From a virus: a stretch of 63,559 nt of DNA. The DNA lies in the IMG/VR virus record IMGVR_UViG_3300044776_000025, positions 1-63,559 of that record; one strand, 5' to 3'. The position numbers were made by a program, and so were the translations under genes. Positions 4,213-62,759 of this stretch are shown here, one piece after another. Every line of letters starts with the position of its first letter. Position 1 is the first letter of the stretch. The notes under the pieces were generated by a model. That model was given only the letters and a program-made list of their open reading frames with translations, made no database searches and was not told the DNA's origin.

Positions 4213-6925
4213 GGGCTGTATAGGATATAGTTGGAGTTGTAAGGAATACGTTCCAGCGTCTGGAACTGGGGATAATGGTGTCTTAGTAATCGCGGAGGCA
4301 GCAGGTGAGCATGAAACGAAAGAGGGTATGCCGCTGGTTGGTAAGGCTGGCTACTACCTTTGGCAGAATCTTGCAAGGGTGGGGATTGAACGTGAAGGAT
4401 TCAGAATTCACAACGTCCTAAGTTGTAGACCACCGAACAATAAACTCGCTAAAGAAAGTTATGAAGAAAACGTTATATCGTATTGTAGTCCTTTGCTTGA
4501 TGGAACTATTACAGATCAACAAGAAAGGTGCCGAAAGAGTGGCAAGCACTTTGTCATTGTTACCCTCGGGCGAATAGCGTTCAAACGCATCATGGGAATT
4601 AATGATAAACATCCCATCATGCGACAGGATTACATAGGATATCCATTCTGGAGTGATCAATATAAGTGTTGGGTCCTAGCAGCGGATCATCCCTCTTATT
4701 TAATGAGGGGGAATAATCATCTTATTCCAGTGTTGCAATTCGTGTTCAAAAGGGCACTTGAAATTGCAGATAATGGCCTAGTACTTGATACACATGAGTA
4801 TTTACTTGATCCAGCTCCTGAGACATTTGCACAGTGGGTTCATGATTATGAGCATGCCTGGACAGAGGACCCAAAGAATATAGTTCTATCCTATGATATT
4901 GAGACTCCATATAAGCAAGGGCTAGGGGAGGACGAACTTGCAAAAGAGGATGGTGAGGATTATAACATCCTTAGATGTTCTTTCGCATATAGACCAAATC
5001 AAGCTGTTAGTGTTCCTTGGCGGGCTGAGTATCGACCATATCTTGAGGAATTATTCTCATCCCCAGGAACTAAGGTTGGTTGGAACTCTAGTGCATATGA
5101 TGATCCTCGTATTATCACCCAGATGCCTATCCACGGAGACCGTATGGATGCAATGCTATGCTGGCACGTCCTCAACTCCGCCCTCGATAAGTCTTTGGGA
5201 TTCGTCACGCCATTTTACGTTCAATCTACCAGTCTCTGGAAGCATCTGAGCGATTCAGAGCCTGCGTTCTACAATGCTAAGGATGCGGACATGGCACTTA
5301 GGAACTTCCTTGGGATTCGCAGGGATCTCATTAAGAACAAGTTATGGGATGTTCTTGATAAGCATGTTGTCCAGTTGAATCGAGTGCTAACTTATATGAG
5401 TGAACGGGGTGTCCTGCTTGATGGTGAGATGCGTCGTGAAGCTGAGACGAAGTTGCAGGATTTACTGGATGTAACTGAGATTTGTATGGAAGCAGCAGTG
5501 CCACAGGCTGCTAGGAAGTTGAAGATCTATAAGAAGCAGCCTAAGGATACAACTGGGATGCATGAGGTTCCTGCTGAGACATTTGTTAAGGCTTGTCTCC
5601 TATGTGGTGAACTTAAACCTAAGAAGAATCATGCAGTTCTATGTAATGGAGAACTTGGAAAGGTTGCATTTCCAACCATTCATTGGGCAAAACCTCTAGA
5701 ATTCAAGGTATCAAAGCTAGGATTAAGTAATTATCAGGCAGTCTTGCGGCATCAGGCAATCGTTGATAGGAAGAAGCAGAAAGTGACGTTTGATGAGTCA
5801 GCACTAATGAAGCTGATGAAAACGTATCCTAATGATCCTCTATATCCTAAGATTTTGGAGCACCGTGAGTATCAGAAACTTTTATCAACCTACATTGGAG
5901 TAACTCAAGATAATGGCACGATTAGAGGCGGAATGCCAGTGGGCAGAGATGGAAGAATTCATACACTTTTTACTCACAACCCGTCTACGCTCAGGCTCGC
6001 AAGTCAGAATCCGAATCTCCAAAACTTGCCACGGCCCAAGGGTTCAGATGACTTGGCGACCATCATTCGCAATCTCATCGTCGCACAAGAAGGTTGTACC
6101 TTCACAGCACGAGATTATAGTGGTATCGAAGCAGTCCTAGTTGGATACTTCGCCTGTGCTCCAAAGTACATCAGATTAGCCAAAATTGATGTGCATAGCT
6201 TCTATACAGCTTATGCCTTGAATTCATTGGATGGTAGAGTGGCAACGGCTGATCTTCCAGATGCTACATGGCCAGATGAGAAGCTTATCCCTCACCTTGC
6301 AGCCATTAAGAAGGAATTCAAGAAGGATAGAAATGAGCTTTACAAACATCTAGTGCATGGTGGGAACTTCGCTCAGACTCCAAAGGGGGCTGCGGAGAAA
6401 ATCTTCAAGGAGACTGGAATTGAGTTTCCAGTTAAGAAGATTGCTCATGTTATGGATGTCTATATGGAGCTGTTTCCTGAGATTCGCAGATGGCATCAGA
6501 CATTACTAGCACAAGCGGAGAAGGATGGGTTCTTGAGGAATCCATTTGGGTATGTTCATAGATTCTATAAGGTTTATAGTTATACAAAGGAATATGGTAA
6601 ATGGATTAGGAAGCCAGGAGAAGATGCCAATAGAGTCATTGCATTCCTCCCTCAATCGACGGCGGCAGGAATCATTAAAGAAGCTCTACTCAGACTATAC
6701 TTTAACAGATTCGACGACGCTGGACAGTATCTCAGGTTACAGGTGCATGATGAAATCTTCTCCGAAGTACCTGAGGCGCTGGTTGATTCAGTTGATGGAA
6801 TTAAGAAGCAAGAAATGGAGAAGCCAATCGTTGCCCTACCTCTTCCAGCGAGTTATGGCATGGGACAATACTTGAGTATTGACACCGAATCCAAACAAGG
6901 GTACCGCTGGGGTACCATGAAATGA
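4184..6925 (+). CDS. Uracil-DNA glycosylase / family A DNA polymerase fusion
   Basis: ATG at 4184 after AAAAGGA. 913 residues. The N-terminal ~190 residues look like a family 4/5 uracil-DNA glycosylase: Cys-rich start (CKGCIGYSWSC), VLVIAEAAGEHETKEGMPLVGKAG, HNVLSCRPPNNK and a late HPSYLMRG. Then a 3'-5' exonuclease: exo I SYDIET near 236, KVGWNSSAYDD, and NAKDADMALR. The polymerase has motif A ARDYSGIE near 643, an O-helix region with KHLVHGGNF near 720, and motif C LQVHDEI near 853. No 5'-3' exonuclease domain. It is the replicative polymerase. The glycosylase would scan or repair uracil, which matters next to a dCMP deaminase that makes dUMP. Family A polymerases with such an N-terminal domain occur in some phages. 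Confidence 0.88.
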   Translation: MSLAKPDFCKGCIGYSWSCKEYVPASGTGDNGVLVIAEAAGEHETKEGMPLVGKAGYYLWQNLARVGIEREGFRIHNVLSCRPPNNKLAKESYEENVISYCSPLLDGTITDQQERCRKSGKHFVIVTLGRIAFKRIMGINDKHPIMRQDYIGYPFWSDQYKCWVLAADHPSYLMRGNNHLIPVLQFVFKRALEIADNGLVLDTHEYLLDPAPETFAQWVHDYEHAWTEDPKNIVLSYDIETPYKQGLGEDELAKEDGEDYNILRCSFAYRPNQAVSVPWRAEYRPYLEELFSSPGTKVGWNSSAYDDPRIITQMPIHGDRMDAMLCWHVLNSALDKSLGFVTPFYVQSTSLWKHLSDSEPAFYNAKDADMALRNFLGIRRDLIKNKLWDVLDKHVVQLNRVLTYMSERGVLLDGEMRREAETKLQDLLDVTEICMEAAVPQAARKLKIYKKQPKDTTGMHEVPAETFVKACLLCGELKPKKNHAVLCNGELGKVAFPTIHWAKPLEFKVSKLGLSNYQAVLRHQAIVDRKKQKVTFDESALMKLMKTYPNDPLYPKILEHREYQKLLSTYIGVTQDNGTIRGGMPVGRDGRIHTLFTHNPSTLRLASQNPNLQNLPRPKGSDDLATIIRNLIVAQEGCTFTARDYSGIEAVLVGYFACAPKYIRLAKIDVHSFYTAYALNSLDGRVATADLPDATWPDEKLIPHLAAIKKEFKKDRNELYKHLVHGGNFAQTPKGAAEKIFKETGIEFPVKKIAHVMDVYMELFPEIRRWHQTLLAQAEKDGFLRNPFGYVHRFYKVYSYTKEYGKWIRKPGEDANRVIAFLPQSTAAGIIKEALLRLYFNRFDDAGQYLRLQVHDEIFSEVPEALVDSVDGIKKQEMEKPIVALPLPASYGMGQYLSIDTESKQGYRWGTMK

Positions 6926-45886: not shown

Positions 45887-46016
45887 TCCTCAGAGGATAC
45901 ATGCAATAAAGCGTGTTGCTGAGGATAGATGTAAGAGGTGTGGAAAGCCAAGGGTGACTGCGTATTGGTGTAGAGGGTGTGCGGATAAGTGGAATGCATA
46001 TCAAAATGGCAAATGA
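45786..46016 (+). CDS. 76-residue zinc-ribbon protein
   Basis: ATG at 45786 is chosen over the TTG upstream. A basic coiled segment (TYDQERLQRQLELTARQRKII) then CKRCGKPRVTAYWCRGCADKW, a clean zinc ribbon. Overlaps the previous gene by about 100 bases in another frame; both have protein-like composition beyond the overlap. Confidence 0.5.
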   Translation: MTYDQERLQRQLELTARQRKIIKAFRKALLRYISPQRIHAIKRVAEDRCKRCGKPRVTAYWCRGCADKWNAYQNGK

Positions 46017-46707
46017 GATCACGGCGCTGATACAGGAATGGCGCACAGAAGCTACAAAAGCCAGGCAGCGAGCCCAAGGCTGTGAACAGCGGAAAATAGA
46101 TTTATTCGAGCTTCGTGCTGAAAGCTTTGAACTATGCGCCGACGAACTCGCCGTCAGACTGAAGGCCCCCGAACCGCCCACGGAGATAGCAATGAGCACA
46201 GTTGACCCATATACAAACGAACAGCTCGCCAACAGGGAATGCGATCAACTCAAGGCCCAGCTCACCGCCGTCGAGGCGCAGCTCCAAGAGGCAAAGGATG
46301 ACGCTGAGTATTGGCAGCTTGTCTCGGACGGCGTGAAGCACTCGCACCTGTGTCCAAACAGCGCGCTCTGTAGAGATCCTGAGCATCGCAGCCCTTGCGA
46401 TCGGTGCCGTGCCGAGACAGCCGAGGCCGAACTAGACACGCTGAAGGCGAGCCTGAGGAGCCTCCGAGACGAAATCGTTGAACATGCCATACGAATACGG
46501 GCAGCCCGCGAAATGTTAGGAGCTGAGAAAGCACGCACGCTCGCGTCAGGAGAACTACTCGGGCTGACGTTCTGTGAAGAGCGGTTGGCGTCCCTAGTTG
46601 CCGTCCCACAAGGGACGTGTGAATGCGGGAGCACCGAGTTTTCACAAGGGCCAAAGAGTCGCCACTGTTTCAAGTGCGGAAAGCTCGCCGTCGAGAAGGG
46701 AAAGTAA
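46006..46707 (+). CDS. 233-residue coiled-coil protein with zinc ribbons
   Basis: From ATG at 46006. The first ~60 residues carry ALIQEWRTEATKARQRA and ELCADELAVRL, a helical unit that recurs in the 46950 gene. Then a long heptad region (KAQLTAVEAQLQEAKDD; LDTLKASLRSLRDEIVEH), an internal CRDPEH...CDRCR site, and a C-terminal ribbon CECGS...CFKCG. GC-richer than neighbours. Unknown; likely an assembly of modules built by duplication. Confidence 0.6.
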   Translation: MANEITALIQEWRTEATKARQRAQGCEQRKIDLFELRAESFELCADELAVRLKAPEPPTEIAMSTVDPYTNEQLANRECDQLKAQLTAVEAQLQEAKDDAEYWQLVSDGVKHSHLCPNSALCRDPEHRSPCDRCRAETAEAELDTLKASLRSLRDEIVEHAIRIRAAREMLGAEKARTLASGELLGLTFCEERLASLVAVPQGTCECGSTEFSQGPKSRHCFKCGKLAVEKGK

Positions 46708-48372: not shown

Positions 48373-49134
48373 ATGCCGATACCGAATTTTCGTGAGAGTT
48401 GGCCGACATTCAATTCAGGTTCGCCATATGTCATTACCAATGAGGAACCAGAGTTGCTATCGAATCTGCTCGGCAAGAGACGGTTCAACAAAGCGGCTGG
48501 TATTCTCTCTGGTGGCGAGGTTCTATTTGGGGTGATGCTACCACGATGCAAGGAAGTCATTGCTGTGGATCACAGCTATGGTTCCCTTGCTGCAGCATAC
48601 ATGAAGGCAATTCTGCTTGACATGCTGGGTGTCAAGGCATTGAAAGAGTTGTTCATTGAGGGCAGCTATGATCAATTGTTCCCACATTTGAAAGCTGCTG
48701 TTGTTCATATGCCTCATGAGTTGACGAAGTATGTCAACATTCTGGAGAAGCAATCCGGTGGTTACTATGGCAGCAGTTTGTTTGCTAATGACCTAATAGG
48801 CTTGAGGCGGGAATGGTTCTACATGAAGGACTCTACATTGGAGCGAGCAAGACGTAGACTTGACAAAGTGATTGTCATTCATGGGGATCTGATGGATCTT
48901 GGCAACTTTGGACAGTTTGAATTGTTGTACATCTCCAATGCAATGGAACATGCCAATAGGAACGCTAAGACACCGCAGCTATTGGAGATGGCAAAGTTGG
49001 TTACAGGGGACGGGCTACTCCTCACCACATCCAATGGTGGCCCTGTGAAGACAAATACACAAGAATGGGAACTTGTCAAGTCCATTAGAGGCTTCAGGAC
49101 TTCTTGGTCGCATAATCTTTACAAGAGGCTATAA
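48373..49134 (+). CDS. Rossmann/SAM-fold methyltransferase-like protein
   Basis: 253 residues. SGGEVLFGVMLPRCKEVIAVDHSYGSLAAAYMKAI looks like the glycine-bearing SAM-binding loop with an acidic residue at the end of strand 2 (VDHS); then VIVIHGDLMDL and a late FELLYISNAMEH and GDGLLLTTSNGG strand set. This matches class I-like SAM-dependent enzymes; similarity to aminocarboxypropyl transferase (BtaA-like) folds is possible but not firm. Followed at 49141 by a truncated second SAM-like gene. Confidence 0.6.
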   Translation: MPIPNFRESWPTFNSGSPYVITNEEPELLSNLLGKRRFNKAAGILSGGEVLFGVMLPRCKEVIAVDHSYGSLAAAYMKAILLDMLGVKALKELFIEGSYDQLFPHLKAAVVHMPHELTKYVNILEKQSGGYYGSSLFANDLIGLRREWFYMKDSTLERARRRLDKVIVIHGDLMDLGNFGQFELLYISNAMEHANRNAKTPQLLEMAKLVTGDGLLLTTSNGGPVKTNTQEWELVKSIRGFRTSWSHNLYKRL

Positions 49135-52861: not shown

Positions 52862-52938
52862 TGGGGGTTAGCTCATACATCGTTTAGAGCAACCGATTTA
52901 TAATCGGAAGGTGGCGGCCTGGCGACCCGCACCCCCAA
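52862..52938 (+). tRNA. Atypical tRNA-like element, anticodon UAU (Ile-like)
   Basis: Cloverleaf geometry is exact: acceptor TGGGGGT (52862-52868) with ACCCCCA (52931-52937), D-stem GCTC/GAGC, anticodon stem CCGA/TCGG, 7-base loop TTTATAA with anticodon TAT (52899-52901), 5-base variable arm, T-stem GCGG/CCGC. The D loop lacks GG and the T loop is CTGGCGA, not TTCRA, so the normal elbow contact is missing, and CCA is not encoded. It may be a degenerate or divergent tRNA(Ile, AUA) or a tRNA mimic. Confidence 0.5.
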
Positions 52939-55245: not shown

Positions 55246-56394
55246 ATGGCTGAGATAATCTATAGAGCGCCAATCACTTTTGGTTGTGACCCTGAATTCT
55301 TCTTTGCTCAGGGTGGGAAAGTCATTGGGTCGGAGAAGGTATTGCCTAAGAGTGGGAATCTTGGGGTTGCTGCTGGAAGTTACCCTAATCCCAGGGCCTT
55401 TGTGCTAGATGGCGTGCAGGCTGAGCTGAATCCCCACGCAACCAGTTGTCGTGCAGAGCTTGGTGGGCAGATTGCATTGGCATTCAAAACGTTGAAGGAT
55501 CACCTTGGGAATATGGGTAATGTGAAGGCATGCTTCGACGCGGTTATCGAACTTGATAAGGATGAACTTAAGGGCCTTAGTGAGAAATCGCGACAGTTTG
55601 GGTGCGCCCCGAGCGAAAATTTTTATGATAAGGATTGCAAGGTTAAAGCGAATGCTGCAACTTATCGCAAGCGGAGTGCTGGAGGGCATATCCATCTCGG
55701 TCTTGGAGCGCTTTTGAAAGCCCATCGTGAGCGGTTGATTCCCATTATGGACACACTTATTGGCAATACTTGTGTTATGATTGATCGCTGCCCTGATGCT
55801 GCCGAGCGTAGGAAGAACTATGGCAGAGCTGGGGAGTATAGATTGCCACAGCATGGTATCGAATATCGAACTTTGAGCAACTTCTGGCTGCGATCCTACC
55901 CGTTGATGGCGTTTGTGATGGGGCTAGCAAGGTTGAGTGTAGGGATATTGAATACGACGTTGCAAGAGCCTGTGCCAGAGAGGGCGGAGAGAGGTATTGT
56001 ATATCAGACAGCTATCACACCTTGGAATGCTGAATCTGATCTAATCAGACGGGTGAATCTAAATAACATTCGTAAAGCTATCAATACGAATGATTATGAT
56101 CTCGCCAGGCAGAATTGGTTGGCTGTGAAGTCATTCATTTCTGACTATGTTCCATCCACAACTGCATGGAGGCAGGAAGTTGCGCTGGATAGTGGTAACT
56201 TGCTAACATTCGAATATTTCCTTGATCAGGTCAAATTGAAGGGAATTGAACGGTGGTTCCCTGAAGATCCTATTGATCATTGGTGTGGTTTGGTTGATGC
56301 TGGAACGAATAATAGGGGCTGGGAAACTTTTCTACGATTTGTTGTTGAACCACAGAGATTAATGGATTATACTGTGCTGGAGGTGAAGAAATGA
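55246..56394 (+). CDS. phiEco32-like COOH-NH2 ligase type 2 (amidoligase)
   Basis: 382 residues. FGCDPEFFFAQGG (12-24), ELNPHATSCRAELG, SAGGHIHLGLG (145-153) and RAGEYRLPQHGIEYRTLSNFWL in pieces (194-215) are the landmarks of the glutamine-synthetase-like COOH-NH2 ligases of the phiEco32 type. The fold joins a carboxylate to an amine using ATP; Glu and His residues in these motifs bind metal and substrate. Substrate not known. Length typical. First enzyme of a module with a second amidoligase, a glutaminase-type domain and an ATP-grasp protein. Confidence 0.87.
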   Translation: MAEIIYRAPITFGCDPEFFFAQGGKVIGSEKVLPKSGNLGVAAGSYPNPRAFVLDGVQAELNPHATSCRAELGGQIALAFKTLKDHLGNMGNVKACFDAVIELDKDELKGLSEKSRQFGCAPSENFYDKDCKVKANAATYRKRSAGGHIHLGLGALLKAHRERLIPIMDTLIGNTCVMIDRCPDAAERRKNYGRAGEYRLPQHGIEYRTLSNFWLRSYPLMAFVMGLARLSVGILNTTLQEPVPERAERGIVYQTAITPWNAESDLIRRVNLNNIRKAINTNDYDLARQNWLAVKSFISDYVPSTTAWRQEVALDSGNLLTFEYFLDQVKLKGIERWFPEDPIDHWCGLVDAGTNNRGWETFLRFVVEPQRLMDYTVLEVKK

Positions 56395-56960
56395 CCGATC
56401 TCAACGGGCCGCAGATTGCAAGTGTTGTGAAAAGCGGGGAGACTCACATTTGGGTTATGCTGAGTAGATCTGGTAGGAAGCAGGGAGATCCTGCTGATTG
56501 GAAGGGTGGCACTAGAGTGACCGTACGAGCCACTACTAGGGTTGAGGAATTCATGCAAAACCTTGGTGCAGGGGAAGTTGTGGATGTTGCAACCATTGGG
56601 AGGTATTGGCAACCTATAGGTGGAATACCATTGAATGCTTATGTTACTCAGCCCTTCAATCCACATTTTCAGATTGATGATGGATCGTTCATTACACTTG
56701 ATCGCCTTGGACATCCGTTGATTCTACCTTCCCCTGATGGACAACAGGATAGACATTCAACTGTGAATCTGAGTTTTCTAAGATTACGAGGAATAAGTGA
56801 AGGTCTTGGAGTGACATTCGGTATTAAGGGTGTATACTCTCTTGATGAATTGCGGAAAGTGAAGGATCGCATTAGTGCGGCCTCTAGGAGATTCTATGTT
56901 GATTATCTCAGACCTGTTGACTTATTGGTCACAGTTAGTACACAGGAAGTTCAACTGTAG
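56391..56960 (+). CDS. 189-residue unknown protein in the amidoligase module
   Basis: ATGA overlap with the amidoligase gene. MTDLNGPQIASVVKSGETHIWV, TRVTVRATTRVEEFMQNLGAG, PLNAYVTQPFNPHFQIDDGS and a C-terminal helix set (SLDELRKVKDRISAASRRF). Beta-rich then helical, soluble. Possibly the acceptor protein or a helper, by position only. Confidence 0.6.
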   Translation: MTDLNGPQIASVVKSGETHIWVMLSRSGRKQGDPADWKGGTRVTVRATTRVEEFMQNLGAGEVVDVATIGRYWQPIGGIPLNAYVTQPFNPHFQIDDGSFITLDRLGHPLILPSPDGQQDRHSTVNLSFLRLRGISEGLGVTFGIKGVYSLDELRKVKDRISAASRRFYVDYLRPVDLLVTVSTQEVQL

Positions 56961-56970
56961 GGGATGTAAA

Positions 56971-57402
56971 ATGGAAAATAAGGAGATACTGGATAAAATT
57001 AGCATTTCTGGTTATATCACAAGGATTGCATGTTGTGGTATTGCAGAGTTACACAGTATCAAGGGATTGGTGGAGGCATTTGGTCCTGATGGAGTTGCTT
57101 TCAAGGTAGGAAGCTTGTTTGCCACAGGATCATTCAATGGAACCTTCCTAGTATTCTCTGAAGTCAAAGGCAATGGTGGTTATGGTGAGAAATTGCGAGA
57201 TTTTGTGCTTTCCGCTAATCTTGGTGGTGTGACACAGACGACAACTTTGAAGAATCCAAATTCTGGCAATTATCTCACTGCCTACATTTGGGAAGTGGAT
57301 CGCTCAAACTTAAAGATTTGGTATGATAAGCAAGAAGAAATCTTTGCTAAAGCCTGTCCTAAAGTTGAACCGACAGTATCATTTGAGGATAGATATCGCT
57401 AA
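56971..57402 (+). CDS. 143-residue unknown protein, paralogue of the gene at the right edge
   Basis: ATG at 56971 after GGGGATG. SGYITRIACCGIAELHSIKGL, TFLVFSEVKGNGGYGEKL and YIWEVDRSNLKIWYDK correspond in order to the gene at 63138 (STGCCGLKEITNLHDY, LVLFTAVVRHTNG, WLWNPNPKTLKTWYNK). An unrecognised duplicated family that brackets the amidoligase module. Confidence 0.6.
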   Translation: MENKEILDKISISGYITRIACCGIAELHSIKGLVEAFGPDGVAFKVGSLFATGSFNGTFLVFSEVKGNGGYGEKLRDFVLSANLGGVTQTTTLKNPNSGNYLTAYIWEVDRSNLKIWYDKQEEIFAKACPKVEPTVSFEDRYR

Positions 57403-57560
57403 TGGATTTGATTTGGCTACTGCTTGATGCGATTATTGAGTTGATGTGGTGGGTAAGCCTGATCACCATTGGTATCGTTGTTGCAGTAGCAGTTATTGTA
57501 CTTGGATTGGTAGGGTTGTATTCAATTGAGCTTGGGAGGGGCGACGATGAAAGCGACTAG
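57402..57560 (+). CDS. 52-residue membrane protein
   Basis: TAATG overlap. MDLIWLLLDAIIELMWWVSL then ITIGIVVAVAVIVLGLVGLY form long hydrophobic helices; acidic end. Overlaps the next gene by 14 bases. Confidence 0.6.
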   Translation: MDLIWLLLDAIIELMWWVSLITIGIVVAVAVIVLGLVGLYSIELGRGDDESD

Positions 57561-58419
57561 TCCGTTAGATATTACCAATGTCATTGGTAGAGCGAAAAAT
57601 CGTATCTACCGGGTTGGAATTGAACTTGAGGGTGGATGGTCAAAGCTGCCAGAGGGAACCACCCTTGTCCATGATGGTAGCGTGCAAATTGCATCTCCTA
57701 GGGATCAATTGCTGGGTGATGAATTGATCCAGTTGCAGAGGTCTATAGATAGAGCTGATACTAGTGCTGAGCTTCAGCGATTGCGAGCACGATACAGAAT
57801 TATTGAGCAAAAGTATCGTGCAGGGCAGTTACAAACGGGGGAATTGCCAAGTGAACCAATGGAATTGGAGAAACTGCCAATTTGGTTGAAAAAGTACTAC
57901 CCCCAGCAAGTAAATGCAACCTGTGGATTACATATCCATATGAGCTTTAAGTCTGCATTCCACTATCAGAGACTTATGATTCCACAGTATCCACTTACTA
58001 TTGTGGAATATCTATTTCGATGGGCACATAAGGAAGAGTTATCTCAAGATCATCCAATTTGGCCCAGACTTAAAGGGGATAGTGAATTCTGTCAACCAGT
58101 GTTTGATCCAGATCGACAAGCACGTAGAATTAAGAAGGAATACAATCGACATGAACCTGGAAATCGGTATTCTATGATTAACTTCTGTTTTGGGACGCAT
58201 GGAACATTGGAATGTAGGTTGCTTCCTATGATGGATAATGCAGATCAGGGTTTGCGGGCAGTACAGACAGTCATTGACGTCACTAATGCTTGCTTGGTGG
58301 ATAAACGTAGGGAGACTAGACTTGTTAGTGAAGTTGTCATTGATCCTAATGATGATATCATTAGGGAGGAAAAAGCTGAGTTGTTAGAACCATATAGGAT
58401 AACTACGAGGATGGGATAA
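57547..58419 (+). CDS. Amidoligase-like enzyme (Amidoligase_2 type)
   Basis: 290 residues from ATG at 57547. YRVGIELEGGWSKLPEGT, HDGSVQIAS, NATCGLHIHMSFKSA (HIH at 129-131) and MINFCFGTHGTLECRLLPMMDNA (209-232) match the amidoligase enzyme family related to glutamine synthetase/gamma-glutamylcysteine ligase. A helical insert with ADTSAELQRLRARYRI lies in the middle. Expected to form an amide or peptide-type bond using ATP. Second such enzyme next to the COOH-NH2 ligase. Confidence 0.82.
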   Translation: MKATSPLDITNVIGRAKNRIYRVGIELEGGWSKLPEGTTLVHDGSVQIASPRDQLLGDELIQLQRSIDRADTSAELQRLRARYRIIEQKYRAGQLQTGELPSEPMELEKLPIWLKKYYPQQVNATCGLHIHMSFKSAFHYQRLMIPQYPLTIVEYLFRWAHKEELSQDHPIWPRLKGDSEFCQPVFDPDRQARRIKKEYNRHEPGNRYSMINFCFGTHGTLECRLLPMMDNADQGLRAVQTVIDVTNACLVDKRRETRLVSEVVIDPNDDIIREEKAELLEPYRITTRMG

Positions 58420-58526
58420 TGATACTTTTCAAACACAGTTATTGGACATGGCGACCACAGTACTATAAAGCCATTAACTATAGATCCGTGCGGTGGTTGA
58501 ATCTATTTTTTAGCACAGGAGGGTAA
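58419..58526 (+). CDS. 35-residue protein
   Basis: TAATG overlap. MILFKHSYWTWRPQYYKAIN then YRSVRWLNLFFSTGG; aromatic and basic. Its end carries the AGGAGGG ribosome site for the GATase gene. Unknown. Confidence 0.45.
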   Translation: MILFKHSYWTWRPQYYKAINYRSVRWLNLFFSTGG

Positions 58527-58530
58527 TCGA

Positions 58531-59493
58531 GTGTGTGTAATCATGATAGCGGATACGAAAGCTCCAACTGATGAGATGTTGGAGAAGGGTTTTGAGGCAA
58601 ACGATGCTGGAGCTGGTGTTGCATGGCGTGAAAATGGCTATGTATACTGGGAGAAGGGAATACAGAATATTGAGGCAGTTCAAGTGTTGTGCAAGGATCT
58701 GCCATTACCGTTCATTGTTCACTTCAGGATTCCGACAGAAGGCGGGCGAAGGCCTTCGTTGTGTCATCCATTTCCCATTGAAAAGACTACTGACCTTGCC
58801 TTGAAGGGTAGAACAAAGGGTTATGTGTTGTTCCATAATGGGCATTGGAGTGAGTGGCGCAAGTGGGTCCTTGAAACTTCGATTGGCTCTAAGAATCCGG
58901 TCCCTAGCGGGAAGTGGTCAGACACACGGGGAATGGCATTTGTTGCGAGCATCTATGGACTTGGTGTCCTTGATATGATCAATGAAAAGGCTGCCGCGTT
59001 TGGGCCTAATGAAATTGAGATTGTGCCTGGAAGTGGTTGGAGTCTAGAGGATGGCGTTTGGTGTTCCAATATGCTTTGGAAGCGGACATATAATGGACCT
59101 ACATATACTAGTAGAATGTGTAAGGCATCCAAATGCACTCGTTATGATACTGATGACTCAGGATTGTGCCGAGAGCATCAGAAAACGCCAGTTGTTCTTG
59201 AGGGTAATGTCACTGTTAATGCCCATTGCAAGTATAACTACTCAAATGGTACGTGTTTGCGGATTGTAAATCTTGATTCAGATGGATTTTGCCCAGCTCA
59301 TACCAAAAAAGTTACGGGATCTGTTGGAGGTGATCCCACTGAAATCCCTTTCGAGCAGGCGATAACTTTGTTTCAAGAGAAGAAAATCTCCAAAAAGCAG
59401 TTCAAGAAGGCGAGGCGCGTCTACGAAAAATTATTGCGGGATGGGAAGGTGAAGCCCTGGCACCAGGAGGCGTCAAAGGAAGTGACTCACTAG
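58531..59493 (+). CDS. Class II glutamine amidotransferase with zinc fingers
   Basis: 320 residues from GTG, so the product begins MCVIMIADTK: the Cys at position 2 is the Ntn-hydrolase nucleophile. HFRIPTEGGRRPSLCHPF, VLFHNGHWSEW and DTRGMAFVASIYGLGVLD are the further family landmarks. It releases ammonia from glutamine, which amidoligases can use. C-terminal half: two zinc-finger-like Cys3His units (C197, C202, C213, H216; C233, C242, C254, H257), then a Lys-rich helix. The 3' end has an overlapping frame (59457-59702). Confidence 0.85.
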   Translation: MCVIMIADTKAPTDEMLEKGFEANDAGAGVAWRENGYVYWEKGIQNIEAVQVLCKDLPLPFIVHFRIPTEGGRRPSLCHPFPIEKTTDLALKGRTKGYVLFHNGHWSEWRKWVLETSIGSKNPVPSGKWSDTRGMAFVASIYGLGVLDMINEKAAAFGPNEIEIVPGSGWSLEDGVWCSNMLWKRTYNGPTYTSRMCKASKCTRYDTDDSGLCREHQKTPVVLEGNVTVNAHCKYNYSNGTCLRIVNLDSDGFCPAHTKKVTGSVGGDPTEIPFEQAITLFQEKKISKKQFKKARRVYEKLLRDGKVKPWHQEASKEVTH

Positions 59494-59702
59494 ATGAGCC
59501 TGTAGCACTAGTTGAAATTGCTGATGCCGAGCAGGATCAATTTGAATGGGCGGCGGGTATTAACGAATACCCTTTCAAGGGCCGCAGACATAGGTCGCCG
59601 ATTGGGTTCTACTATGATTCTGAAGCTGAGGAGCCAGATGAAATGCGTCGTCGTAGAATTGAAAACGCAAAGAATGGCATTGAGCATGTAGGACCAATTT
59701 AG
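59457..59702 (+). CDS. 81-residue ORF without a canonical start (frameshift or non-AUG)
   Basis: The frame one base back from the GATase gene stays open for at least 20 codons inside that gene and then runs past its stop to TAG at 59702. Product after the overlap: SDSLDEPVALVEIADAEQDQ, FEWAAGINEYPFKGRRHRS, FYYDSEAEEPDEM, credible protein. No ATG/GTG/TTG lies in frame before an ATG at 59652. CTG at 59457 follows GGAAGGTGA. A -1 shift in the GATase gene (near CAAAAAG, 59391-59397) would also produce it. Confidence 0.45.
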   Translation: MAPGGVKGSDSLDEPVALVEIADAEQDQFEWAAGINEYPFKGRRHRSPIGFYYDSEAEEPDEMRRRRIENAKNGIEHVGPI

Positions 59703-59706
59703 GTAT

Positions 59707-59781
59707 GGTGGGCATAGTTTAATGGTAGAACGATTGCCTGTGGAGCAGCAGGCATTGGATCGATATCCATTGTTCACCCCA
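59707..59781 (+). tRNA. tRNA-His (GTG)
   Basis: Acceptor GTGGGCA (59708-59714) with TGTTCAC (59771-59777, two G-U pairs), with the His-specific extra G at 59707 opposite C73 at 59778, and CCA encoded (59779-59781). D arm GTTT AATGGTA GAAC, anticodon loop CTGTGGA with GTG at 59740-59742, T loop ATCGATA. A few weak pairs (A-C in the anticodon stem, G-T near the T loop) show drift, but all landmarks of tRNA-His are present. Confidence 0.86.
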
Positions 59782-59793
59782 AAATGAGTTAAT

Positions 59794-60042
59794 ATGACCT
59801 TGAAAAAATTTGTTAGACGGTATTATAGGGCTAACAGTATTAGAAATCCTTTAGCATCAGAAGTTGATACTTTACTGTCTGCACAGTTAAGTCAATTTAA
59901 AACCTTCTACCTAGAAGGATATATGAGGTATGGTGCAAGTGAATTTCCTACTGGGCAATTGTATGAAGAATGGGTAATGTGTTATCGTATCTATAAAAGC
60001 GTAGTGGAGATAGTAGAGGAGATGGAGGGAAGGAATGCTTAG
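59794..60042 (+). CDS. 82-residue helical protein
   Basis: Follows the tRNA. MTLKKFVRRYYRANSIRNP, then helices (LSAQLSQFKTFYLEGYMRYG; YKSVVEIVEEMEGRN). Overlaps the next gene by 8 bases. Unknown. Confidence 0.55.
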   Translation: MTLKKFVRRYYRANSIRNPLASEVDTLLSAQLSQFKTFYLEGYMRYGASEFPTGQLYEEWVMCYRIYKSVVEIVEEMEGRNA

Positions 60043-61141
60043 GTTTTATCAGCAGTATGCGGAACAGTTGTTGTTGGCACTGATTTATATGAGAGATCGT
60101 ATTGGAAACGATTTTACTGAAGTTTCGCGATATACTCGTAACAATTGGAGGGTTTTTGATGTCAGTAGATATGAATATCAGACACCTGATGTTGTCAATA
60201 GTGTTGCCTTCATTCATGAAACCAATGAAATGGAGTACTCACTGACTGAAATGGTCAATGATCTCCAGCAACAGCTTAGGAATTACCATGATAGGACAGG
60301 TCCTGGTGTTGATGGTGGTAAGCATGATAAGGATCTCATTGATACTATTGTGAGATGTTTACAGTTGCCCTATGCTAGAAATAGACTGTCAGGAGATGTA
60401 TTGGACATCCTTAAGAAGGCATTACTGTTGCCTGAGGAATTGGTCGGGCTCAAGGAACGAATGCAGCGAGAGGAAATGAGTTGCACCCAATGTGGACATA
60501 AATTCCTTACTGGGGAAATTGGTTCATTCCACAAGGAACGGGATAGAACACAGGTATTGTGTACTAATTGTTATCACCCAACAAGATTTTCAGCGGCTTG
60601 TGGGAAGCACAGTATTGAAGTTCCACATGGGGTGCATAAAGTGTTTTCTAAGGAGCATGAAAAGCCGTGTGTGTATTGTGAGGCGGAGGTTAAGGAAAAG
60701 GAATTAGAACAACCGCAGGAGGTTATTCTAACTACTAGAGAGGTGCCACCGGATGATGGGACTGTCGTTCGAGGAGGTCGGTGGGCTGGCCGTGCTGTTA
60801 ATACTGGTATTCTTAATAATGGCAGAGGACCATTTACAACAGCTTATCAGGCTTATCAGCAAACTGCTACGCAACCACAGAGATTTAATACTGAAGGTTT
60901 TGATGTAACAGCACAAGCAAATATTACTATACCACCTCCTGGTATGATTGTCCCTAACCCTGTTGCACAACCTAACGTTGTTACTATCACTGGTGGTGGA
61001 TTAGGTGTGAACGATGATGTGTACCGACAGTATCAGCGTATTATACAGGAAAATAGAGAAGCAGACGTACGACGACTTACTGATGTTTTGGATGGTGATA
61101 CTGAAGAACTGTTAGTTGAGAGAGATGAAGATCATGATTAA
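60035..61141 (+). CDS. 368-residue multi-zinc protein, amidoligase module
   Basis: N-terminal helical domain (about 1-145), then zinc sites CTQCGHKFL, VLCTNCYHP, FSAACGKHSIEVPHG, PCVYCEAEV (about 149-230), then a flexible Gly/Thr/Pro/Gln tail (GGRWAGRAVNTGILNNGRG; NITIPPPGMIVPNP) and an acidic helix end. No enzyme motif. Probably a nucleic-acid or protein scaffold. Unknown family. Confidence 0.6.
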   Translation: MLRFYQQYAEQLLLALIYMRDRIGNDFTEVSRYTRNNWRVFDVSRYEYQTPDVVNSVAFIHETNEMEYSLTEMVNDLQQQLRNYHDRTGPGVDGGKHDKDLIDTIVRCLQLPYARNRLSGDVLDILKKALLLPEELVGLKERMQREEMSCTQCGHKFLTGEIGSFHKERDRTQVLCTNCYHPTRFSAACGKHSIEVPHGVHKVFSKEHEKPCVYCEAEVKEKELEQPQEVILTTREVPPDDGTVVRGGRWAGRAVNTGILNNGRGPFTTAYQAYQQTATQPQRFNTEGFDVTAQANITIPPPGMIVPNPVAQPNVVTITGGGLGVNDDVYRQYQRIIQENREADVRRLTDVLDGDTEELLVERDEDHD

Positions 61142-61520
61142 TTTGGATGATCTCAAATCAGATGCTCAGAAGAAGATTGACGCTGCTGCTAAAGCGGATC
61201 AGGAGAGGGCACATAAGATGCTTCGATCTATGAACACAACCATCTTACCCAATGAAGAGGAGTTTGAGGAAGATGACGATGATACTGATGACTTAAAGGA
61301 ACAGCTCACACATTCATTGTTGTTGATGCACGACATGAACAATTTGTTAACAACATTGAGAGATCCTCTTAGGAATGGTAAAATCAACGTCTACCTAATG
61401 TTGGAGATTGATAGAATTTCGGATGAAGCAACAGCATTCTTAAAAGGTTGTGATCTTGGAAGCGAGAAACCAAAGGATATTGATGAGGTAAATGAAGCAG
61501 ATTTTAACATCTATGACTGA
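61134..61520 (+). CDS. 128-residue acidic helical protein
   Basis: ATG at 61134 inside the previous gene end. MINLDDLKSDAQKKIDAAAK, a highly acidic stretch (NEEEFEEDDDDTDDLKEQL), then helices with HSLLLMHDMNNLLTTLRD. May act as an assembly or inhibitor protein. Unknown. Confidence 0.55.
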   Translation: MINLDDLKSDAQKKIDAAAKADQERAHKMLRSMNTTILPNEEEFEEDDDDTDDLKEQLTHSLLLMHDMNNLLTTLRDPLRNGKINVYLMLEIDRISDEATAFLKGCDLGSEKPKDIDEVNEADFNIYD

Positions 61521-61800
61521 CTGCCAAACCCGCAGAAGTCGTAGACAGCTCGGCGATGAATGCACAACCCGGTCTATGCCGGGTGTCTCATACAGACCTG
61601 CTTGTGCTCAGTCGAGCATTCCCGATGTAGATGCCTTTCGAAGCCCTTCGCTCGTGAGCTGAGCGGATCAGCAGGCTAGGTTAGTAGATTGGCATCCAGC
61701 CCAGTGTCGTCTTACACTGAAGAGCCAAAGCGGGACTAGGTTGAGGTAGGGGTTCGCTGTGAAAAGGCACCCTAGTATAAACTAAAAACCCTACCACCAT
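61521..61800 (+). ncRNA. Strongly structured putative non-coding RNA
   Basis: Gene-free, dense in perfect hairpins: ACCCGG/CCGGGT (61567-61584), GCTC/GAGC around 61607, GCTGA/TCAGC near 61657-61672, CAGTGT/ACACTG within TTGGC/GCCAA (about 61689-61726), and GGTAGGG/CCCTACC (about 61745-61796) ending in ACCA. CTAGGTT repeats at about 61675 and 61736. The closing GGTAGGG stem with ACCA resembles a tRNA acceptor, but there is no tRNA or tmRNA body. It lies between two genes of the amidoligase module. Confidence 0.5.
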
Positions 61801-61824
61801 TTTGGTAACTATTGGAGGATTGTA

Positions 61825-61944
61825 ATGAGTATGTTTGGAAGCTTTGTGCTGATCGTGCTTGGATTGTCATTCTCGGCTGTCGTGGTTGCTGCAGCGATAA
61901 CTGCAGTTATAGCTTTGTTTGGTTTGGTTAGGGAGATACGATAA
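61825..61944 (+). CDS. 39-residue membrane protein
   Basis: ATG after TTGGAGGATTGTA. MSMFGSFVLIVLGLSFSAVV and AAAITAVIALFGLV give one or two hydrophobic helices. TAATG overlap into the ATP-grasp gene, so the two are coupled. Confidence 0.6.
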   Translation: MSMFGSFVLIVLGLSFSAVVVAAAITAVIALFGLVREIR

Positions 61945-62759
61945 TGATTTATGTGTATCGGCGCAGAGCATCGGATAGTGCGCGGGATCTTGCGGAAGCG
62001 ATGAACGTCAATTGCCGACGGTTGAATGACCTTGGACGGGCGCATTTTGGCAATGGTGTGCGAGCGGGGGATGTTGTAATCTGTTGGGGCGAGGCATTGG
62101 CTCCTATCAATGGAGTCAAGATTCTTAATGGTGCAGGCTTGACAAACAAGATGGAAGATGCTAGGCTGCTGAGAGCTGCCAATGTACCAACTGTTGAAGT
62201 GAGTCAGACTAGGCCACCTGCTGTCCCAGCTAATGATTGGGTCGAATTTCAGGCAGCTCGATTGAATCGGGATAATGCCCGACGAGTTATTACGCAGTTG
62301 CAGGCGTTTCTTGCAACGCCTGTTCCAGTGCCAATGACTTGGCTCGCACGTAGGTTCAATCACGTAGGAGGGGCGGATCTGCTTCAGCCACCGCCACAGC
62401 CGGATTACTTTAGCAAAAAGGAGGATCTTCGGGAGGAATATCGCATTCATTGCTTCGACGGGAAGTCCATTAGGGCAGGTGTTAAGGTCCCCCGAGAGGG
62501 AACACAGCCGCATGCGTGGATTCGTAGTCTCGATGGAGGATGGCGGATTCGGTATGATGAATTTGCATCTAAGAAAGCAATGAGAGAGCTGGCTGCACAG
62601 GCGGTGGCTGCATTGGGGTTGCAGTTCGGAGCGGTGGACATTGGGAAGAAGGCAGATAATTCGTTGATTGTGTTGGAAGTGAATCGAGCACCTGGGTTGG
62701 AAGGAAATACAACCACAGTTTATGCGAACGCGATTGAAACGTGGTTGAAGGGGGAATGA
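61944..62759 (+). CDS. ATP-grasp ligase
   Basis: 271 residues. An N-terminal Rossmann-like part (MIYVYRRRASDSARDLAE; DVVICWGEAL), a region with NKMEDARLLRAANVPTVEVS, then EEYRIHCFDGKSIRAGVK (about 164-181) and FGAVDIGKKADNSLIVLEVN (228-247) with D232, E245, N247 as the metal/ATP site, followed by RAPGLEGNTT. This is the ATP-grasp C-lobe signature. Forms an amide or ester via acyl-phosphate. Closest in role to the ATP-grasp enzymes found with amidoligases in phiEco32-like phages. Confidence 0.85.
   Translation: MIYVYRRRASDSARDLAEAMNVNCRRLNDLGRAHFGNGVRAGDVVICWGEALAPINGVKILNGAGLTNKMEDARLLRAANVPTVEVSQTRPPAVPANDWVEFQAARLNRDNARRVITQLQAFLATPVPVPMTWLARRFNHVGGADLLQPPPQPDYFSKKEDLREEYRIHCFDGKSIRAGVKVPREGTQPHAWIRSLDGGWRIRYDEFASKKAMRELAAQAVAALGLQFGAVDIGKKADNSLIVLEVNRAPGLEGNTTTVYANAIETWLKGE

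Follow-up and report, generated by a model that had tools for sequence, protein, structure and literature searches.

The sequence analysed here is the virus record IMGVR_UViG_3300044776_000025 (63,559 bases; hereafter the window), with the focus on a cassette at positions 55246-62759 that encodes two amidoligases, a class II glutamine amidotransferase (glutaminase) and an ATP-grasp ligase. Judging from this DNA and that of related phages, the glutaminase gene is very likely a programmed -1 ribosomal frameshift gene. Taken as a whole, the observations are quite likely best explained by a divergent cassette whose glutaminase is decoded in two ways. The new part is the predicted regulatory recoding of the glutaminase, as the cassette kind itself is already known.

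The glutaminase frame stops at 59493 and is followed by a coding-looking frame that lacks a usual start codon. This is the -1 frame of the same gene, which was overlooked in an earlier account of the window that used the letters alone (the sequence-only reading). It is open over 59343-59702, i.e., under about the last 49-50 codons of the glutaminase and past its stop, and contains no ATG, GTG or TTG before 59643, deep within the tail. The heptamer C_CCU_UUC lies within this open stretch, and the Shine-Dalgarno (SD)-like GGAGG upstream of it (59326..59330) is the start of a longer match, GGAGGTGATC, to the end of 16S rRNA. Slippage at the heptamer would yield a predicted fusion product of 390 amino acids (aa), with an extension ending in the conserved tail W....N...KG.R...E...R.RR...A..GI..VG. 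In E. coli, C_CCU_UUC and C_CCU_UUU both belong to the high-efficiency class of heptamers, and frameshifting is stimulated by SD-like motifs 6-17 nucleotides (nt) upstream (PMC4066793); West Nile virus, too, uses C_CCU_UUU as its site (PMC11507841).

The window was compared with IMG/VR phages (labelled L001-L017) and with GenBank phages including UFV-P2, 7-11, IME234 and KZY1. The glutaminases of the window, L002 and L015 were ~40% identical and shared the same frame architecture: in L002 and L015 the same -1 frame was open for 83 and 88 codons ahead of the stop and had a related tail at its end, and in all three genes CCCTTT[CT] fell on the same aligned, conserved Pro-Phe codons, a short way into the open stretch. 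Per gene there were 2-4 X_XXY_YYZ heptamers, and only at C_CCU_UU[C/U] did the -1 frame pass the stop; among 29 cassette genes in five phages, these three glutaminases alone had such a site. When synonymous codons were permuted, keeping protein and codon usage, a heptamer with an open -1 frame arose in 5.5e-4 of shuffles for the window and in 1.5e-4 and 2.5e-4 for L002 and L015, respectively. GGAGG, GGAGG and GGTGG were found at the three loci, with a spacing of 15 nt in all. Furthermore, an H-type pseudoknot (7 + 8 bp) that 0.5% of shuffles equalled lies 6 nt beyond the heptamer in L002, and L003 and L017 carry a similar tail fused in frame to the glutaminase. Because the heptamer, open frame, shuffles, GGNGG motif, L002 pseudoknot and fused tails come together, programmed -1 frameshifting is the best reading of this gene, and one that we strongly infer. 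The frame-0 continuation past the heptamer was conserved too (PF..A..LF..GK.SK...K..R, within tails 46-73 residues long). The frame-0 tails were basic (isoelectric point (pI) 9.6-10.7), whereas the -1 tails were acidic (4.8-5.5), a contrast that is partly built into the code because AAR codons read one base back tend toward GAA or similar.

Several observations weigh against frameshifting. No convincing stem or pseudoknot followed the heptamer in the window or in L015, the structure in L015 being weak at best; in bacteria a downstream stem-loop or pseudoknot is not obligatory. The conservation of GGNGG is not independent, because it is forced by a conserved Gly-Gly pair, and a hidden Markov model (HMM) of the L002 and L015 tails found the window tail weakly (E = 0.21). 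The arrangement was present in three genomes only, all of them IMG/VR contigs. Four GenBank phages had no such frame in their cassette glutaminases, and neither there nor in the remaining relatives did any heptamer lead into a -1 frame extending beyond the stop. Neither a substrate nor a product nor a protein was observed.

Alternatively, the tail could belong to a distinct small gene with a start of its own, at which translation resumes by termination-reinitiation. Coupled genes of this sort are common in phages, and candidate starts do exist: a TTG (11950) immediately ahead of the glutaminase stop in L002 and an ATG beyond the stop in L015. These are not homologous between loci, however, and the first usual start in the window would give a product of 19 aa only. 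Reinitiation also does not require a -1 frame that is open 50-88 codons upstream of the stop, and L003 and L017 carry the tail as part of the glutaminase itself; we therefore consider this reading improbable. The continuous frame of L003 and L017 would also fit an assembly or sequencing error in these metagenome contigs, in which the loss of one base would break a fused gene in two. Such an error is highly improbable given that three independent contigs show the same shift direction at the same codons; in addition, both frames look selected, because the frame-0 continuation after the heptamer is also conserved.

Separately, the + strand gene at 45979-46707 has a GGGAAAG heptamer near 46698, 3 codons ahead of its stop, from which the -1 frame extends 73 codons more; its -1 product looks arginine- and cysteine-rich.

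All four enzymes named in the sequence-only reading were confirmed at their positions. The proposed phiEco32-type COOH-NH2 ligase matched PF14395 COOH-NH2_lig (60.5 bits, cut-off 25) and phrog_3815 (1.1e-31), and its metal and ATP residues (D15xE17, H148xH150, E206YR208) were invariant in 5 homologues. The second, amidoligase-like enzyme almost certainly adopts the GS/GCS fold. On its own it was below the PF12224 Amidoligase_2 cut-off (11.3 vs 22 bits); the same model was matched by 9 of its 11 homologues (E up to 1, best 1.6e-7), and its profile resembled the amidoligase profile of UFV-P2, 7-11 and a Zobellviridae phage (hhalign 94.8%, E = 5e-8). E26xE28, H129xH131 and E222xR224 were invariant in the 11 homologues. 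An AlphaFold (AF2) model (pLDDT 84) matched phage amidoligases (E = 8.6e-6, Pseudomonas phage tf ranked first) as well as glutamine synthetases: on re-alignment, every one of the 50 solved structures listed was a glutamine synthetase (Z up to 9.5; rmsd 3.4; 165 residues). Searching PDB sequences with the profiles of the glutaminase and the amidoligase gave no matches, and relatives of these two proteins were found neither in bacterial genome scans nor among plasmids.

The frame-0 glutaminase consists of a glutaminase domain, Cys/His zinc-finger-like motifs and a basic tail (pI 10.1). As had been proposed from Cys2, its class II signature was present, with C2 (the catalytic Cys after Met), HFR/R66, CHPF/H79-P80-F81, HNG/N103-G104 and D131, and the catalytic positions were invariant in 9 homologues. 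The window protein had no match to Pfam GATase, and GATase_6 was matched by 4 of the 9 homologues (best 6.2e-5). The predicted ATP-grasp ligase matched phrog_2599 over the whole protein (2.4e-28) as well as RimK/D-Ala ligase profiles, and contains K158, E165xR167, D232 and E245xN247, of which ExR, D and ExN were invariant among homologues. It thereby resembles R2K/RimK-like phage ATP-grasp ligases, but differs from R2K enzymes in scoring below the Pfam cut-offs (R2K_3, 23.7 vs 26.3 bits; R2K_2, 20.9 vs 26.2) and in lacking the ExGD motif, which is said to mark R2K.3 (Burroughs 2015, PMC4431377). All metal, ATP and nucleophile residues of the enzymes were intact in the window and in every aligned homologue.

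Pseudomonas phage UFV-P2 has a PF14395 ligase, small unknown protein, Amidoligase_2, glutaminase and ATP-grasp ligase in identical order, and slightly varied forms of this arrangement occur in Salmonella phage 7-11, Vibrio phage IME234 and the Zobellviridae phage KZY1. The cassette was found, whole or partial, in at least eight IMG/VR phages with all active-site residues invariant, and its kind spans LUZ24-like, phiEco32-like, Vibrio and Zobellviridae phages. These gene neighbourhoods bear out the likeness to a phiEco32-type cluster noted earlier, and we are nearly certain that the cassette is a divergent member of the LUZ24/phiEco32-type amidoligase kind. Iyer et al. reportedly predicted the phage amidoligase cassette from sequence in 2009. 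The likeness to the known cassette (UFV-P2 gp20-gp29, 7-11 gp105-gp99) lies in the enzymes, the zinc-motif glutaminase and the gene order and, for UFV-P2, in a Band_7 gene upstream, as in the window. In contrast, the sequences are only ~25-32% identical, the small protein shows no detectable relation by profile, and the window has an extra zinc protein, an acidic protein and the predicted -1 frameshift, and lacks a gamma-glutamyl cyclotransferase.

The suggestion that zinc-finger extensions and extra genes point to a different product was unsupported in the form given. A C-terminal two-CxxC zinc motif is also present in the glutaminases of UFV-P2, 7-11, IME234 and the Zobellviridae phage, so zinc fingers were rejected as the mark of a new product, and the same four phages also have a small protein without known function between both amidoligases. 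Homology of the 189-aa protein in this position with UFV-P2 gp22 was dropped, as profile comparison gave no signal (hhalign probability 0.1). The 189-aa protein lies upstream of the second amidoligase in seven relatives (L001, L003, L006, L007, L013, L015 and L017). It forms, with the amidoligase and glutaminase, a minimal triad. This triad stands by itself in L006, in L013 and, probably, in L005 (the L005 partner was not clearly alignable). A longer operon, with the 189-aa partner, a three-Cys-pair protein and an acidic protein in addition, is common to the window, L003, L015 and L017. No gamma-glutamyl cyclotransferase (PF06094) was found in the window record, which is possibly incomplete. 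The gene was present in all six of the other relatives and absent from the records of the window, L002 and L015, i.e., the frameshift set, a pattern that could stem from one shared lineage or from incomplete records.

Based on these assignments, the class II glutaminase would release ammonia, or transfer a gamma-glutamyl group, from glutamine, and the two GS/GCS-fold ligases and the ATP-grasp ligase would use ATP to form carboxylate-amine bonds in successive steps on an acceptor. Most ribosomes would terminate in frame 0 to give the 320-aa protein with its basic tail, while some would slip -1 on C_CCU_UUC, aided by the upstream SD-like GGAGG, to give a 390-aa form that retains the glutaminase and zinc-finger parts and has a different, conserved tail. 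Each tail might then bring the shared glutaminase to a partner of its own, and the rate of slippage would set the ratio. The folds make amide ligation chemistry probable. That two oppositely charged tails split the ammonia supply in a fixed fraction between two amide ligases is a tentative suggestion. The amide or peptide modification put forward in the sequence-only reading is thus the natural reading of the folds, although no substrate or target was found for it.

It is possible, if somewhat doubtful, that the product of the cassette is a peptide-like tag or modification of a host or phage protein and not a small molecule. The ATP-grasp relatives are RimK-like, and phage R2K ATP-grasp enzymes have been proposed to modify host proteins (PMC4431377), but no target gene was evident, and the neighbouring acidic small proteins lack a shared C-terminus, which argues against a Pup-like carrier; their C-termini are D, F, V, T and V, with no conserved residue, and such a carrier was rejected. 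A role in making or trimming the gamma-glutamyl amides of a small amine, e.g., in nucleotide or DNA base modification, is less likely still. In its favour, gamma-glutamyl cyclotransferase genes adjoin the cassette in UFV-P2, L003, L007 and L017, but their absence from the frameshift set runs counter to it, and the genes looked at (part of the open reading frames (ORFs), including DNA polymerase, dCMP deaminase and a deoxyribosyltransferase-like gene) gave no pointer to base modification.

The window comes from a tailed phage, as its ORFs include terminase, portal, capsid, lysozyme and PolA-like genes, of which the terminase was separately confirmed. This terminase was 59-67% identical to those of L003, L015 and L017 and had no match in L001, L002 or L007. 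Since the COOH-NH2 ligase closest to that of the window belongs to L002, which has no terminase match, the cassette seems, by these comparisons, to have been transferred between unrelated phages. All cassette genes lie on one strand and form an operon-like block that also includes a tRNA-His gene and membrane microproteins (Table 1).

Table 1. Features of the cassette and its recoding site (positions in the window).
Feature	Positions	Strand	Basis or remark
COOH-NH2 ligase (PF14395, phiEco32 type, GCS/GS superfamily)	55246..56394	+	Pfam, PHROGs, residue alignment
189-aa conserved partner of second amidoligase, no known family	56391..56960	+	relatives' gene order
143-aa protein, small family	56971..57402	+	comparison with relatives
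52-aa membrane microprotein, one hydrophobic segment	57402..57560	+	sequence
Second amidoligase, GS/GCS fold (very probable), near Amidoligase_2	57547..58419	+	profiles, AlphaFold model, invariant motifs
Class II glutamine amidotransferase, frame-0 product 320 aa	58531..59493	+	signature residues, homologue alignment
GGAGG, SD-like putative stimulator	59326..59330	+	15 nt upstream of slippery site
Candidate slippery heptamer C_CCU_UUC	59346..59352	+	heptamer scan, conservation
Predicted -1 frame extension, 116 aa + stop, pI 4.8	59352..59702	+	frame analysis, tail alignment
tRNA-His (GUG)	59708..59778	+	G-1 at 59707, C73
82-aa ORF, no relatives detected	59794..60042	+	comparison with relatives
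368-aa protein, three invariant Cys pairs (C150/153, C176/179, C212/215)	60035..61141	+	alignment
132-aa acidic protein	61122..61520	+	start codon uncertain; listed ORF begins TTG 61116
38-aa membrane microprotein abutting ATP-grasp start	61826..61942	+	sequence
ATP-grasp ligase (phrog_2599, RimK-like)	61944..62759	+	PHROGs, RimK/D-Ala ligase profiles

The tRNA-His is real by its anticodon, G at -1, C73 and Rfam score (41 bits), although ARAGORN misses it, and the two microproteins can each be read as a single membrane helix, both as previously described. The three-Cys-pair protein is kept between the glutaminase and ATP-grasp genes in L003, L015 and L017, and comparable acidic proteins are found at the same position in L002, L003, L015 and L017. 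A structured RNA had also been proposed, and this was borne out in part. RNA at 61501-61620 (+), in the non-coding region ahead of the ATP-grasp gene, does fold stably (z -4.3; no Rfam family), whereas the whole 423-nt gap (61521-61943) folded ordinarily (z -0.4) and matched no Rfam family, and a structure spanning the gap was rejected. In L003 and L017 the ATP-grasp gene is preceded by hardly any gap.

Further features were noted on the + strand and in relatives. A second tRNA-like gene (52862-52938, Rfam 34.6 bits, ARAGORN silent) directly follows the Band_7 lipoprotein gene. A 253-aa protein of no known family (48373-49134) is conserved in L002 (2385-3197), there also near the cassette. The 143-aa family (CCGI.E...) has several dispersed copies in these phages (L002:574-933, 6036-6410; L001:6141-6446; L003:12885-13262; L015:14023-14472; L017:6243-6674).

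If the two tails do split the ammonia supply between two ligases, as tentatively suggested, translational recoding would set flux in a biosynthetic pathway. The recoding signal would imply that the exact balance of the two glutaminase forms matters, and the tail domain would be a suggested working part of the enzyme; the signal also provides a short RNA element testable in a standard reporter. We found no publication describing a glutamine amidotransferase with a C_CCU_UUY -1 frameshift. TrpG and PabA are shared (amphibolic) glutaminase subunits, one polypeptide serving two synthases; the arrangement proposed here is similar in that one glutaminase would supply two synthases, but differs in that two isoforms would do so. 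The gene resembles known bacterial -1 frameshift genes (dnaX, IS3/IS911 transposases, lambda-type tail chaperones) in its X_XXY_YYZ heptamer, SD-like stimulator and alternative C-terminus, but here the gene encodes a glutamine amidotransferase and the motif is C_CCU_UUY, such that a metabolic enzyme would join a list dominated by transposases and tail chaperones.

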